From: Candidatus Scatomonas merdigallinarum | GTDB taxonomy: Bacteria; Bacillota; Clostridia; Lachnospirales; Lachnospiraceae | Length of the DNA stretch: 64,000 bases | Direction of reading: 5' to 3' | Assembly: GCA_018716305.1 (NCBI GenBank) | Contig: DVKB01000005.1 | Location: forward strand, 1-64,000 | Shown here: positions 57,672 to 63,561 of the stretch, one piece after another | Numbering within the stretch: the first letter of the stretch is position 1 | Layout: each line of letters starts with the position of its first letter | Translations under genes and position numbers: made by a program | The notes under the pieces: generated by a model | What the model saw: the letters and a program-made list of their open reading frames with translations, nothing else | Told to the model about the DNA's origin: nothing | Database searches by the model: none

Positions 57672-58961
57672 CTAATCCTGCTTTCTCACCATCTTTTTCA
57701 TTTTATCTATGATCGCCCGCACCGGCGCTGTCAGTTTCCAGCTGGCGGAAGACAGAATGGTATTCAGATCCCCCGCTAATTTTTGATTGAGACTGTCCCG
57801 CATAGATATTTCTTCTCTGAGCTGCGCAGTTTCTCTTTCTCTTTCCCGGATCTGCCTTCTATAGTCTTCCAGTTCATTTTCCAGCTTAAAAATATGCTGC
57901 CGGGTCAGATTCAGCCAGTGCTCCTGTCCCCTGATCTTTTCTTCGTATTTTTGCGTATACAGATCATTAAAGATGTGCTGTCCCGTATATTTCCCGCATT
58001 CAATCGTTGAAAAATTATATTTTTCTTTCAGCAATTTTGAAAACCGCTCATCCGCCAGCATTTCTTCTAATTTCAGCAGGCCTAACGCCTGCGGGCAGTG
58101 TGAACCGTGGATCGGCCTGCAGAGCAGAAAGGCCTTTTCGCAGGCCAGCTCCTCCGGGCTTCTGGAATCCGGGCATACAAACATTTCCTGAAAAGCACGT
58201 AAAAACAGTTCGTCATCCATGTCATCAAAAAAATGATACCGGATAAACATATGCTCGTTAAAAAACCGGATATTGTGCATTTCTGAATCGCTGCTGACAT
58301 TGACCTCCGGGTCGGAAACTCTCCTGTAGTAAACCAGCGATTCCTCTAGAATCCCAAATGAATACCGCTTGGCAAAACGCACCCACCATTCAAAATCCAT
58401 CCCCTGAATATAAAACAGGCTGTGCCGGCCGATTTGAGAAAACGCTTCATATGTGACCAGCGAAGATGGATTGTTCAGCCGGTTTCCATAAAAGAAAAAG
58501 AATCTGAGCCAGTATTCCCTGGATTCCGTACTGGACGAATACAATTTCTTCAGTTCCGGCATTTTATCATCTATTACATGGCCCTGCTCATCGATCAGCG
58601 TAACCCAGGTGAAGCAGCCCTGATGCCGGGGATGCTGCCGAAGATACTCTAATTGTTTTTTGAGTTTATCCGCGTCCCAGATATCATCGCTGTCTATGAT
58701 GGCAATATATTCTCCCTTAACCTTAGAAAATCCTACGTTGGTGGCATGGGCTATATGGCAGTTTTCCCCCAAAGAATAATACTCAATCCTGGAATCGGAA
58801 AATTCCGAAACAATAGCCTCTGTGCTGTCTGTAGAACCATCATTAACAATAATAAACTGTAGATTCTCATAGGTCTGATTCAAAACACTCTCGATACTTT
58901 TCCTGATGAACTTTTCCGCATTGTATGCCGTCATAACCACACTGATCAGCGGTGCATCCAT
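57672..58961 (-). CDS. Family 2 glycosyltransferase, paralogue of 50032..51312
   Basis: 429 aa; near-colinear with the first copy (PLISVVMTAYNAEKFIRKSIESVLNQTYENLQFIIVNDGSTD). Confidence 0.93.
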   Translation of the reverse strand: MDAPLISVVMTAYNAEKFIRKSIESVLNQTYENLQFIIVNDGSTDSTEAIVSEFSDSRIEYYSLGENCHIAHATNVGFSKVKGEYIAIIDSDDIWDADKLKKQLEYLRQHPRHQGCFTWVTLIDEQGHVIDDKMPELKKLYSSSTESREYWLRFFFFYGNRLNNPSSLVTYEAFSQIGRHSLFYIQGMDFEWWVRFAKRYSFGILEESLVYYRRVSDPEVNVSSDSEMHNIRFFNEHMFIRYHFFDDMDDELFLRAFQEMFVCPDSRSPEELACEKAFLLCRPIHGSHCPQALGLLKLEEMLADERFSKLLKEKYNFSTIECGKYTGQHIFNDLYTQKYEEKIRGQEHWLNLTRQHIFKLENELEDYRRQIRERERETAQLREEISMRDSLNQKLAGDLNTILSSASWKLTAPVRAIIDKMKKMVRKQD

Positions 58962-59033
58962 ACCTTCTACCCCCTGACTTCAATTTCCGCGCTAATATAA
59001 GTCATCATATCATGACGCGCCGGGTAATGCAAC

Positions 59034-59078
59034 AGAGGAGCCATACCTGTCCGTGAAAAGATAGGTATGGCTCCTCTT
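59034..59078. terminator. 15-bp perfect hairpin downstream of the SGNH hydrolase
   Basis: AGAGGAGCCATACCT...AGGTATGGCTCCTCT. Confidence 0.75.
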
Positions 59079-59085
59079 TATCTGC

Positions 59086-60816
59086 TCAGCTAAAAACCGC
59101 CCCGTAGCACTGGTCCTCTATGAGACTGCCGCTCTCATCATAGATCCGGAAATAAGTCCAATAATACCCCTGATGCGGCGGCTGCCATGTCGTCCAGAAA
59201 GCACTTCCAACGTCCAGTGTCTGCAAACCGGTTCCGTAGATCCACGGATGCGGATCCCCGGAAACATATTTTCCGCAGTCCAGGATCAGCAGTTCATATC
59301 GATATTTCTGCCCCGGATTTATATTCGTGCTGACTCCAATGAGCCATCCCCCTCCGGAAGGATCAGGTCCCTGATATTTTCCGTTAATATAGACCGGATA
59401 ATTTCTGTTCACCGCAAAATTAATTGTTTTAGAAACTATTTTCCCATATGAATCTCTCACTTCCACATGAAGCCAGTAATTGCCCTTTTTAGGCTGCCAC
59501 GACGACCAGTTGGAACTGCTCCAGTCGCTGATCAGGTTCCAGCTCAGAGTATCGAGATTATAGGACTGCCATCGGATTTCTGTCCCCTCATCCGGACTTG
59601 AAACCGCCGCGCCGATCTGTATCTCATCTTCCTGATAAATCCAGCTCAATCCCTCGATCGTCACCGGCCGGACTGCAGCTGTTACCCCTGCTACATCAGA
59701 AGCTTCCTCCCCCAACGCATTTCTGGCGGTACAATACAGCCAGTAGCCGCCGCTTTTTTCCGGCCTGTACTCAAACTGATTGCTTTCGCTCCACTCGGAA
59801 GCGTAGATCCACGCGGCCGTGCTGCAGTCGTATACCTGCCATTGATACTCCATTCCTTCTGTCAAGCCTGACACAAGATATTCCGCGCGGACAGTACCGC
59901 TGTCATTTTGAAGAACCCGGATTCCTTCCGACTTCAGAACCGGCTGATCGTACTGAAGCATATGCCATATTTTATAGGCCCCCTTTTCGTTAATGTGGAG
60001 ATAATCCGGTCCGCACATATCTTCCTTCTCGTCCAGACCTGACTGTCTTAAATCTACACAGCGGATTCCGTAATACTGACAGATCTCCACAATAGAATCC
60101 GCGTATAAATCTACGTCCTCATTGGTGCTGCTGCTCCACGAACTGATATCCCGGTAATAGGGAGTCAGGCAGATAATTTCCGCCTGGGGATAATATTCTT
60201 TTAACCGCGCCAGGGCAGTCTGGTATGCTGAACAAAATTCCGAAACATTTCCTATGCCCTCGCCGGGTACAAATTCACCCACCGGCGTGCTTGCGATATC
60301 ATTTGTTCCTCCGAAAAACAGGATTATATCAGGCGTTCCGTTATCATCCAGTCTGGCAATTCTCTCTTCTGCCGCCATACACTGCTTGCTGTTGTATCCG
60401 CTGGGCTCTCCTTCCCACCATGCGACTTTTGATCCGCCTAAGGACTCATTTACCCCCAGCCTCATCTGATTGTTTTCAATATACCGCATCCACCAGGTTT
60501 CTGATACATCCATATACTGACTGCAGTAGTAATAATAATAAATACTCCAGGTGGTATACCCTTCATAGGTCCCCAGGCTGTCACTTAAAATAGAAACGAC
60601 TTTTTTGTCTTCACTGTCTTGCGAAAAAATCTCCGGATGATCTGTCTCTCCTTCACGCAGCCACGGGGGAAAATCGATGTTTTCAATATTCTCCAGATCT
60701 TCCTTCTGCCTTTCAGATGCATGCGCCGCAAAGGCAGAAACAGAAAAAATCGCCAGGGTACATCCGCACAGAAGAATCATTCGTTTAAGTTTTCTCTTTA
60801 ATTTCATCGCTGCCAT
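59086..60816 (-). CDS. Exported SGNH/GDSL hydrolase with C-terminal aromatic-rich repeats
   Basis: 576 aa; signal peptide; VSILSDSLGTYEG, FFGGTNDIAS, DYLHINEKGAYK; three WQ-Y..W..Y repeats. Confidence 0.88.
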   Translation of the reverse strand: MAAMKLKRKLKRMILLCGCTLAIFSVSAFAAHASERQKEDLENIENIDFPPWLREGETDHPEIFSQDSEDKKVVSILSDSLGTYEGYTTWSIYYYYYCSQYMDVSETWWMRYIENNQMRLGVNESLGGSKVAWWEGEPSGYNSKQCMAAEERIARLDDNGTPDIILFFGGTNDIASTPVGEFVPGEGIGNVSEFCSAYQTALARLKEYYPQAEIICLTPYYRDISSWSSSTNEDVDLYADSIVEICQYYGIRCVDLRQSGLDEKEDMCGPDYLHINEKGAYKIWHMLQYDQPVLKSEGIRVLQNDSGTVRAEYLVSGLTEGMEYQWQVYDCSTAAWIYASEWSESNQFEYRPEKSGGYWLYCTARNALGEEASDVAGVTAAVRPVTIEGLSWIYQEDEIQIGAAVSSPDEGTEIRWQSYNLDTLSWNLISDWSSSNWSSWQPKKGNYWLHVEVRDSYGKIVSKTINFAVNRNYPVYINGKYQGPDPSGGGWLIGVSTNINPGQKYRYELLILDCGKYVSGDPHPWIYGTGLQTLDVGSAFWTTWQPPHQGYYWTYFRIYDESGSLIEDQCYGAVFS

Positions 60817-60861
60817 ATATTCCTCCAGCTGTATTTATAAACTCCCATTCAACGACACAAA

Positions 60862-61131
60862 GATGGCATGAACGCTCCGAACTGCCATAATTGTATAGAG
60901 ATGTTGGGGGCAAAAGCCCCCAACTATGATGCCTGCGGATTGTTCCGTGCTGCGCACTCCCACAATCCTACCTAATATTCGCATATCGTGGGATATGCAT
61001 CCCACTTTTATGCTCATATTAGGGCGGGTCCCAAAGCCTTAAACCCACTTATGAGCAAGCTCATGTGGGTTTAGGCCTTTTGACCCTGGCATCATAGCTA
61101 AACAATTATTATCTGAAACGTTCATGCCATC
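60862..61131. ncRNA. Highly structured intergenic element, candidate ncRNA or MITE-like mobile element; orientation unknown
   Basis: Nested complementary segments: 60862-60874/61119-61131 (13 bp), 60924-60933/61088-61097 (10 bp), and internal hairpins at 60903-60924, 60937-60968, 60971-61023 and 61026-61086. Confidence 0.65.
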
Positions 61132-61206
61132 ATCAAACGATTATTTACTCCATGGATCGAAAACTATGATTGCTGTCCTTTCAACCCTGATTTCCCAAAG
61201 ACCTGT

Positions 61207-63561
61207 TTACACGTTTGGATCGGTGGGATCCCAGTTCTGATTTGGATCTGTAATCCGTATAATCGGCCCCTGTCCCAGCGGTCCGGGATCCGGACTGTCA
61301 TAAATATCTACCTGCATTCCCAGAGGGCAGTTGTCATAAATCCATTTCGCGTCTCTCACACATAATCTGACACAGCCGCTGGATGCAGGGCTTCCTAAAA
61401 GGTTATACTGATTTGGATCCAGATTATAGCTGGTCATATTAGATCCCGCAACTGAATGGAATAAAACGCCTCCAACAATCCGGGTACAATACTGGCCGTA
61501 TGAAGGACCGATCAGTTCATGCCAGCGGTATTTCGCCAATGTGTGGAAGGTTCCCGTGGGAGTCTCTTTGCCCGGCAGTCCCACGGAACACGCAAACCGC
61601 TTTACGGGAATGATATACCCGTTATTTCCATCCTTAGCGTAGATCGTAACCGTGCAGGTGGTACGGTTGATCTTTGCCAGATAAGAAGACTGTTTGGGCA
61701 GGATCCCGTCAAGGTCAAGCTGTTTTACGTTATTGATATAATAGAATTTATATCCGTTTTCATAATACCATCCGTTTTTCCCGAAATCCGACGGATAAAT
61801 ATGTTTGTTTACCTGATCCACCACTGTTCCCTGGGCGTTTGTGATCCTGCAGCAGAATTCATAATCGCCCACAGCCCACGGAACCCAGCTGATTGCTTTC
61901 GGAGTGCTTCCTGTATACAGTGTATCCCATCCGGATCCGTTCCACTGCAGATAGGTAAATGTATAGTCTTCATGCAGAATGTCTGTTCCGCTGACCGACA
62001 GGCTGGCCTGATACCCCACCTGAAGACTGCTGGAAAAGCCAAAGCTGCTGATTCTGTACCCTTTAATTAAGTATCCGATGGTTTTCTCATAGGTTTTTCC
62101 ATTGCTTCCCGTAATTACCACATGAATCCAATAGGTTCCGCTGGCTTTCGGCTGCCAGTAGGTATTGTGCCCTGTCCCGATATTTGACCACTGCTTCGTC
62201 TGCAGATCATAAATCTGATACAGATACTGGAGATTCGGGTCATTGGATTCTACATTCTGCTGAATATAATAGGTGGCGTAATCCGGTGTATAAACCTGCA
62301 GATCCGTTAAATTCACATGGTATGGGTTGACCTGATAAGCAATCGTCGCCTGACTGCTTCCGCCGTCCTCTGTTCTGGCCTCCACATGGATCCAGTAGGT
62401 AGCAAAACGCTCCGGATTCCACACTGCTTCGGAAGACGCTGACCAGTCCTGAATTAAGCCCCAGGTCTGCTTGTCCAGATCATAATACATCCAGCGGTAT
62501 TCCAGGCCGCTTCCGTTGGTGCTGCCGCTGATATTAACATGAATTTCTTTTTCACCTTCTGCCGATGTCTGGATTGATCCCAGTGTAATCGCAGGTTCTT
62601 CCGCTATATAACTCAGAAAGCTCTGCTTCAGGATCGTTCCCTCTCCATCATAAATCTGGAAACAGAGAAGATAGCTTCCCGGTCCGTCTGCCCGATAATC
62701 CGCGCTCTGCAAAGTATCCGTCTTTAAAATGCTCTTCCAGTACCGGCCGTCATATGCGAGATATTCATAGGTCAGAGGCTGTCCCAGAGGATTATTGACG
62801 CTTCCCGTCAATTTTACCGTGGAGGACCAGATCTGCTGTCCCCCTCCCTCTATGGAAAATCCGGCGATATCCGCGCCGGCGACCCGGTATCCCATGGTGC
62901 TGGTAATTTCCCGGCCGCTTCCGTCTTCCGCAACTACGTGGATCCAGTAATCTCCTCCTTTGGACGGTGTCCAAACACAGGAGGTGCCGCCGTTATCCTG
63001 AAGCGTATACCAAATCTGGTCAGACAGATCATACAGCATATATGTAAAGGATACATCCTGCATATTTGTCTCATACCGCGGCCGGATTTCGATTCCGCCG
63101 CCTGAAGCCGGATTGGTATCTATTCCGTTCAGACGAAGATAGGCCTGATCCACATGCAGAGTCTGAAAAGCGTTTGTCTCCTGCCCATTATACTGAACCT
63201 GATAAGCTACCAGATAATCTCCAACGGCATCCGGGGTCCACTGAACCTGGATTTCCGGATTCGCGGAACGGTAGATCTCTCTCCATGTGGTACCGTCATA
63301 ATAAATATAACGAAATACCGCGTCCGGTTCCCCGGTTACAGCCGCTTTCCCTTTTAATGTAACCGTGCTTCCGATTGGAATATTCTGTGAAGGCGTAATC
63401 TCCAGCGCCGCGGCACTGGCGCTGGCCGCGGTTTTCTCCGTGACAGCCGCCGGACCGGAAGCGTCTTCCGCCAGAACGGGAACACTGGTAAACAGCATAA
63501 GAAAGCAGAGGAATGCTGCCAGAATTCTTTTTCCCTTCATACTTGTCTCCTTTCTGATCAA
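61207..63561 (-). CDS. Exported L,D-transpeptidase (YkuD) with six aromatic-rich repeats
   Basis: 784 aa; signal peptide; PTGTFHTL, FHSV...SPASSGCVRLCVRDAKWIYDN; N-terminal tandem ~95-aa modules. Confidence 0.9.
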   Translation of the reverse strand: MIRKETSMKGKRILAAFLCFLMLFTSVPVLAEDASGPAAVTEKTAASASAAALEITPSQNIPIGSTVTLKGKAAVTGEPDAVFRYIYYDGTTWREIYRSANPEIQVQWTPDAVGDYLVAYQVQYNGQETNAFQTLHVDQAYLRLNGIDTNPASGGGIEIRPRYETNMQDVSFTYMLYDLSDQIWYTLQDNGGTSCVWTPSKGGDYWIHVVAEDGSGREITSTMGYRVAGADIAGFSIEGGGQQIWSSTVKLTGSVNNPLGQPLTYEYLAYDGRYWKSILKTDTLQSADYRADGPGSYLLCFQIYDGEGTILKQSFLSYIAEEPAITLGSIQTSAEGEKEIHVNISGSTNGSGLEYRWMYYDLDKQTWGLIQDWSASSEAVWNPERFATYWIHVEARTEDGGSSQATIAYQVNPYHVNLTDLQVYTPDYATYYIQQNVESNDPNLQYLYQIYDLQTKQWSNIGTGHNTYWQPKASGTYWIHVVITGSNGKTYEKTIGYLIKGYRISSFGFSSSLQVGYQASLSVSGTDILHEDYTFTYLQWNGSGWDTLYTGSTPKAISWVPWAVGDYEFCCRITNAQGTVVDQVNKHIYPSDFGKNGWYYENGYKFYYINNVKQLDLDGILPKQSSYLAKINRTTCTVTIYAKDGNNGYIIPVKRFACSVGLPGKETPTGTFHTLAKYRWHELIGPSYGQYCTRIVGGVLFHSVAGSNMTSYNLDPNQYNLLGSPASSGCVRLCVRDAKWIYDNCPLGMQVDIYDSPDPGPLGQGPIIRITDPNQNWDPTDPNV

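Follow-up and report, generated by a model that had tools for sequence, protein, structure and literature searches.

The intergenic stretch at positions 60862 to 61131 of the window (the whole DNA analysed, 64,000 nucleotides from Candidatus Scatomonas merdigallinarum) raises the question of what kind of feature its many nested pairings belong to. The original prediction took them as one element of about 270 nt, for which three natures were proposed: a large structured RNA of the HEARO or omega-RNA kind, a MITE delimited by a 13-bp outer stem, or an invertible segment. From the analysis reported here, the feature is with a probability of about 88% a copy of a non-autonomous, MITE-like transposable element, the core of which is what Rfam catalogues as the Clostridiales-1 RNA.

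Two features in one folded stretch

All the predicted stems are present where they had been placed. For the interval 60850-61145, the MFE was -128.4 kcal/mol on the plus strand and -145.9 kcal/mol on the minus strand, to be compared with shuffle means of -72.3 and -83.5, respectively. This corresponds to z = -12.0 on both strands, and none of 200 shuffles folded as well. The Rfam search that had been proposed as a check gave a strong match, on the minus strand, to RF01699 (Clostridiales-1), a family listed by Rfam since about 2010. The match runs from 61094 to 60927 and spans positions 1-166 of the 166 of the model, with 154.4 bits (E 2.4e-37) versus a gathering score of 48, which places the stretch in the family by score and by full length. 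The part recognized by Rfam comprises the second long-range stem and the three arms inside it. Besides RF01699, cmscan returned for this stretch a single chance miRNA match at E<=5. So, the proposal of a large structured RNA was right in that a named family exists, but this is neither HEARO nor omega-RNA, and an RNA function is putative. The features of the locus are the following (evidence in parentheses).

59086..60816, minus strand: GDSL-type lipase/acylhydrolase, probably secreted (Pfam PF16255, E 1.2e-17)
60862..60874, plus strand: left arm of an older 13-bp inverted repeat, GATGGCATGAACG, outside the element (sequence)
60895..60899, minus strand: putative target-site copy at the right end, T--CTAT (sequence; inferred)
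60900..60916, plus strand: right terminal inverted repeat, GATGTTGGGGGCAAAAG, reading outward on plus (sequence, pattern scan, TIR alignment)
60900..61093, minus strand: complete mobile element, A-type Clostridiales-1 member, 194 bp (target duplications of other copies, TIR alignment, pattern matches)
60927..61094, minus strand: RF01699 match, closing stem and three arms (cmscan)
61077..61093, minus strand: left terminal inverted repeat, GATGCCAGGGTCAAAAG (pattern scan, TIR alignment)
61094..61100, minus strand: target-site copy at the left end, TAGCTAT as read on minus (sequence, compared with the 7-bp duplications of other copies)
61119..61131, plus strand: right arm of the older 13-bp inverted repeat, CGTTCATGCCATC, outside the element (sequence)
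61207..63561, minus strand: YkuD L,D-transpeptidase (Pfam PF03734, E 2.9e-18)

The supposed single nested element turned out to be two things merged, as the RF01699-containing element sits inside an older palindrome. Without the element, what remains of the site is 78 nt, GATGGCATGAACG ... AATAATTGT TTAGCTAT ACAATTAT ... CGTTCATGCCATC, which fold alone (DNA MFE -17.4 kcal/mol, z -6.6), the element being placed at the centre (loop) of this palindrome. In the host genome the 13-mer occurs exactly only as the two arms, while three more matches with one mismatch are at about chance level. Given this absence of further exact copies, the palindrome is considered a separate, older feature, and the outer 13-bp stem, which belongs to it and lies outside the element, was rejected as a terminal repeat. 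The palindrome ends read GATG...CATC. It might be the remnant of an older element, and it could also act as a terminator or cis-regulatory structure of the flanking genes. Concerning these genes, the GDSL hydrolase and the YkuD L,D-transpeptidase both give weak Y_Y_Y domain matches, below cut-off, and a family-2 glycosyltransferase adjoins them (window 57672-63561).

Termini, target duplications and dispersed copies

The flanks of about 95 copies indicate that the Rfam model ends short of the element. Beyond the closing stem GGCATCA, most intact copies carry an extra hairpin that ends in ATC or CTC, and next to this stands a repeat of the bases found ahead of the left-end GAT. The extra hairpin occurs as GTTGGGG..CCCCAAC in the A type, AGAGGTCAAATTTTAATTTGACCTC in the B type, and GCCC..GGGC in the C type. 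In the window copy, positions 60916-60924 form with the right terminal repeat the hairpin GTTGGGGGC/GCCCCCAAC, which is absent from the Rfam model and which over 12 copies was 86% paired, with two-sided changes at 2 pairs. Because both ends of the element align as inverted repeats, the hairpin omitted by the model is the right terminal repeat. The terminal inverted repeats are 17-nt long and imperfect, with left ends GATRCCAGGGTCAAAAG and right ends, read outward, GATGTTGGGGTCAAAAG. Over 48 copies they matched at 13.0 of 20 positions, versus 5.4 in shuffled pairings (maximum 6.4), and sliding one end by a single base lowered the match to 6.3. The end pattern was found in the window at 60900-60915 and 61078-61093. 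The 194 bp element has no transposase gene of its own, the overlapping open reading frames listed being of about 60 codons and crossing its edge. The MITE hypothesis was right as to kind, but the 13-bp outer stem does not supply the terminal repeats; these lie at 60900-60916 and at 61077-61093, and the target duplication is of 7 bp.

The target duplication was evident at the family level. For the 7 bases lying outside GAT...ATC, the match between the two sides in 32 copies had a frequency of 0.70, compared with a mean of 0.52 and a maximum of 0.60 in 1000 shuffled pairings, and the edges were sharp, the positions flanking the 7 matching at 0.09 and 0.16. In an independent set of copies, found solely via the left-end 18-mer, 20 of 81 had, at 60-330 nt, an exact duplication of 7 bp or more, versus 2.6 expected and a maximum of 8 in 200 shuffles; these duplications mostly came directly after CAACATC or a close variant. 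The target consensus was ATNNNAT, with 91% A+T. Among 57 copies, a set partly selected for exactness, the duplication was of 7 bp in 29, 8 bp in 8, 12 bp in one, 6 bp in one and imperfect in 18. The 12-bp case (ATTGTATTATAT) is L088 (G030:C77:3241-3408), differing from the 7-8 bp of other copies. The duplication of the window copy appears to be imperfect too, as T--CTAT reads as the 7-mer TAGCTAT minus two bases. Two other target models were rejected: a TA-only target of the Correia/ERIC type, suggested by flanking TA, in view of the 7-bp length, and a 5-bp duplication with TGAT..ATCA ends, because L054 (CTTACTT), L081 (ATTTTAA) and L086 (ATAAGTA) match over 7 bases, the outer ones included.

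The search for further copies, also proposed in advance, was positive. The host genome (2.5 Mb, 34 contigs) contains 36 copies above the Rfam cut-off and 48 at E<=0.001. Copies above the cut-off were found in 18 of 61 relatives, several with 15 to 35 or more, and the left-end 18-mer retrieved from species-level genomes at least 118 stretches, almost all of them in Lachnospiraceae and spread over many genera (Blautia, Enterocloster, Hungatella, [Clostridium] symbiosum, Muricomes, Mediterraneibacter, Anaerostipes and others). Many contigs of the host draft (C1, C5, C6, C8, C10, C11, C17-C20, C24, C27 and C30) start or end within copies, as near-identical repeats would be expected to break a draft assembly.

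The joined flanks of host copies match uninterrupted orthologous sequence in sister species. At four loci, alignments showed the insertion absent from genomes G002 and/or G003, two of them with a single copy of the 7-mer. At C5:35887 the filled site has the duplicated ATCATTT/ATAATTT and the sisters a single ATAAATT or ATAACTT, while at C26:138519 ATGATAT is present twice in the host and ATAATAT once in G002. Empty sites thus exist for these four copies, but the orthologous site of the window copy was not found in the family genomes searched. An invertible segment is unsupported, given that copies lie at differing sites with their own duplications and that empty sites exist.

The orientation of the copies to neighbouring genes is not fixed (+,+ 27; -,- 21; divergent 23; convergent 5). 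This bears on the view that the feature regulates the two flanking genes in cis, for instance as a terminator or attenuator; its position between two co-directional genes would suit such a role. With other copies in either orientation and no T-run after the hairpins, this view is highly improbable. The unfixed orientation agrees with the grading of the motif as probably not cis-regulatory by Weinberg et al. 2010 (PMC2864571).

Deletion derivatives are common, with both ends kept and one, two or all three arms lost. Examples with their flanking duplications are:

C26:157040, deletion derivative, ATTTAAT on both sides
C10:73460, deletion derivative, TTAGTAT on both sides
C33:37148, deletion derivative, ATTCAAT on both sides
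C26:138519, deletion derivative, ATGATAT on both sides
C16:17007, deletion derivative of 44 nt, TTGATTAT, 8 bp duplication

Such forms are also seen in L356 and L364 (a hairpin of 36 nt; a copy of some 46 nt). The deletions could postdate insertion and so do not show the arms to be dispensable for movement.

Truncated copies bear on a SINE-like origin, in which a structured RNA would be returned to DNA by target-primed reverse transcription. The structured single-stranded form, the variable duplication length (7, 8 and one of 12) and several 5'-truncated copies with intact 3' ends would fit such a route. However, the full survey gave as many 3'-truncated copies and many internal deletions, and the approximately equal numbers of 5'-only and 3'-only fragments, without 5'-truncation bias, speak against LINE-like reverse transcription. 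The two ends are, moreover, mutually inverted repeats, and the short, symmetric target is of the sort used by DNA transposases. This origin was dropped as very unlikely.

Other observations concern particular copies. In L008 (G000:C30:33320-33541) and L012 (G000:C22:156730-157059), a nested insertion is seen: the 5' end of an A-type copy has received a B-type element, flanked by a clean duplication of 7-8 bp. L059 (G000:C26:74748-75202; three copies in tandem), L062, L079 and L080 are divergent, with other end sequences and weaker RF01699 matches, and may represent a separate repeat family having the fold alone in common. In several copies (L006, L034, L105, L110, L116 and others) the left-end TGA is the stop codon of an upstream open reading frame, so the element may supply new stop codons to such frames.

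Proposed mode of movement and possible role of the three-arm fold

The MITE-like nature is carried by terminal repeats, target duplications at the family level, empty sites, high dispersed copy number and deletion derivatives, in a short element without a transposase gene. The terminal repeats of 17 nt are probably bound by a transposase supplied in trans, which would insert the element into AT-rich intergenic ATNNNAT sites and copy 7 bp (sometimes 8) of target each time. The window copy corresponds to an insertion, in minus orientation, into the centre of the existing 78-nt palindrome between the two genes. The mover is most likely a DNA transposase of DDE type making 7-bp staggered cuts.

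Concerning an autonomous partner, no relative or transposase was found near isolated ends, nor in end-pattern scans of four genomes. Within 1.74 Mb of loci searched, no long element with paired termini and duplication was found, the single match being two tiny copies around housekeeping genes. Candidate elements between distant ends (C13, 3.4 kb; C32, 0.7 kb; L364, 2.8 kb) were rejected, as only housekeeping or unrelated genes lie inside. The search for phage or plasmid carriage gave no plasmid match and 18 unannotated faecal contigs; in viral contigs, the right end was present in nine and the left end in none.

The mobile reading has to be weighed against that of Rfam, where the type of RF01699 is 'Gene; sRNA', with function unassigned and expression implied by the type; the copies would then be paralogues of a functional small non-coding RNA gene. 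The family has a conserved fold, and the motif, from Clostridiales and human gut, is graded as 'probably' a biological RNA by Weinberg et al. 2010 (PMC2864571). In A-type copies from five genomes, at least 2 Watson-Crick types occur at 19 of 50 pairs, and among non-Watson-Crick pairs G-U exceeds A-C (23 vs 11 kinds, 92 vs 13 cells), with the caveat that the structure was predicted by a rule favouring G-U. Of 91 copies, 89 fold better on the Rfam strand, but about half of the strand difference in folding energy is reproduced by shuffled sequences and is thus explained by composition. Also against a small RNA gene, the excess of G-U is absent from subfamilies that spread recently (11 vs 14 kinds), many copies are internally deleted to tens of bases, one terminus is missing from the RNA model, target duplications flank copies, and empty sites exist. 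A small RNA gene is therefore rather unlikely as an explanation of the family, although mobility is compatible with transcription. No further biological account of Clostridiales-1, and no prior report of its mobility, was found in the open literature searched.

Why a MITE should keep so complex a fold across genera is a question raised by these results. The three-arm interior may have been kept through selection acting on a single-stranded form, or through correction of the palindrome. The G-U excess in A-type helices hints, as far as the predicted pairing allows, that one single-stranded form has been under selection in source copies, a constraint that a plain MITE would not need. On the other hand, paired changes can also arise when template switching corrects imperfect palindromes, a process established for DNA. 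The results also warn that covariation in DNA palindromes can resemble that of RNA. It is conceivable, if doubtful, that the single-stranded interior (RNA or ssDNA) acts in the mobility of the element or in transposase control, which would make it a MITE dependent on structured nucleic acid. Selection restricted to source copies would then have left its trace as the G-U excess that old lineages show and fresh copies lack.

The MITE-like kind of element is an ordinary one, and what is new is the reading of a catalogued RNA family, for which mobility is well supported. The insertions with target duplications give Clostridiales-1, catalogued as a small RNA, a likely nature; many 'sRNA gene' calls would be corrected, and the element explains assembly breaks in carrier genomes.

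Relation to known systems

With Rfam RF01699, the window element has in common the sequence family, the strand and the three-arm fold over the full model length. The Rfam model describes a 166 nt sRNA gene and omits the right terminal repeat with its hairpin, the target duplication and mobility.

REP/REPIN repeats with RAYT transposases are likewise palindromic, intergenic and of high copy number, and a hairpin element of this kind, or one derived from IS200/IS605 and moved by a Y1 transposase, would be small and orphan as the present one. IS200/IS605 insertions create no target duplication, nor do REP/REPIN, whereas Clostridiales-1 copies have them. Furthermore, genome G005 has about 30 well-formed, duplication-flanked copies yet no Y1_Tnp match. 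The IS200/RAYT partner was rejected on this account, and such a relationship is extremely improbable.

The bacterial MITEs Correia/NEMIS, RUP and ERIC are close in kind to the MITE-like element described here, being also short, ORF-less, bounded by terminal inverted repeats, dispersed in intergenic positions, accompanied by deletion derivatives and moved in trans, as this element probably is. They duplicate TA or otherwise differ in sequence, while the window element belongs to a family that duplicates 7-8 bp at ATNNNAT, whose ends read GATRYYRGGGTCAAAAG and whose three-arm interior is conserved.
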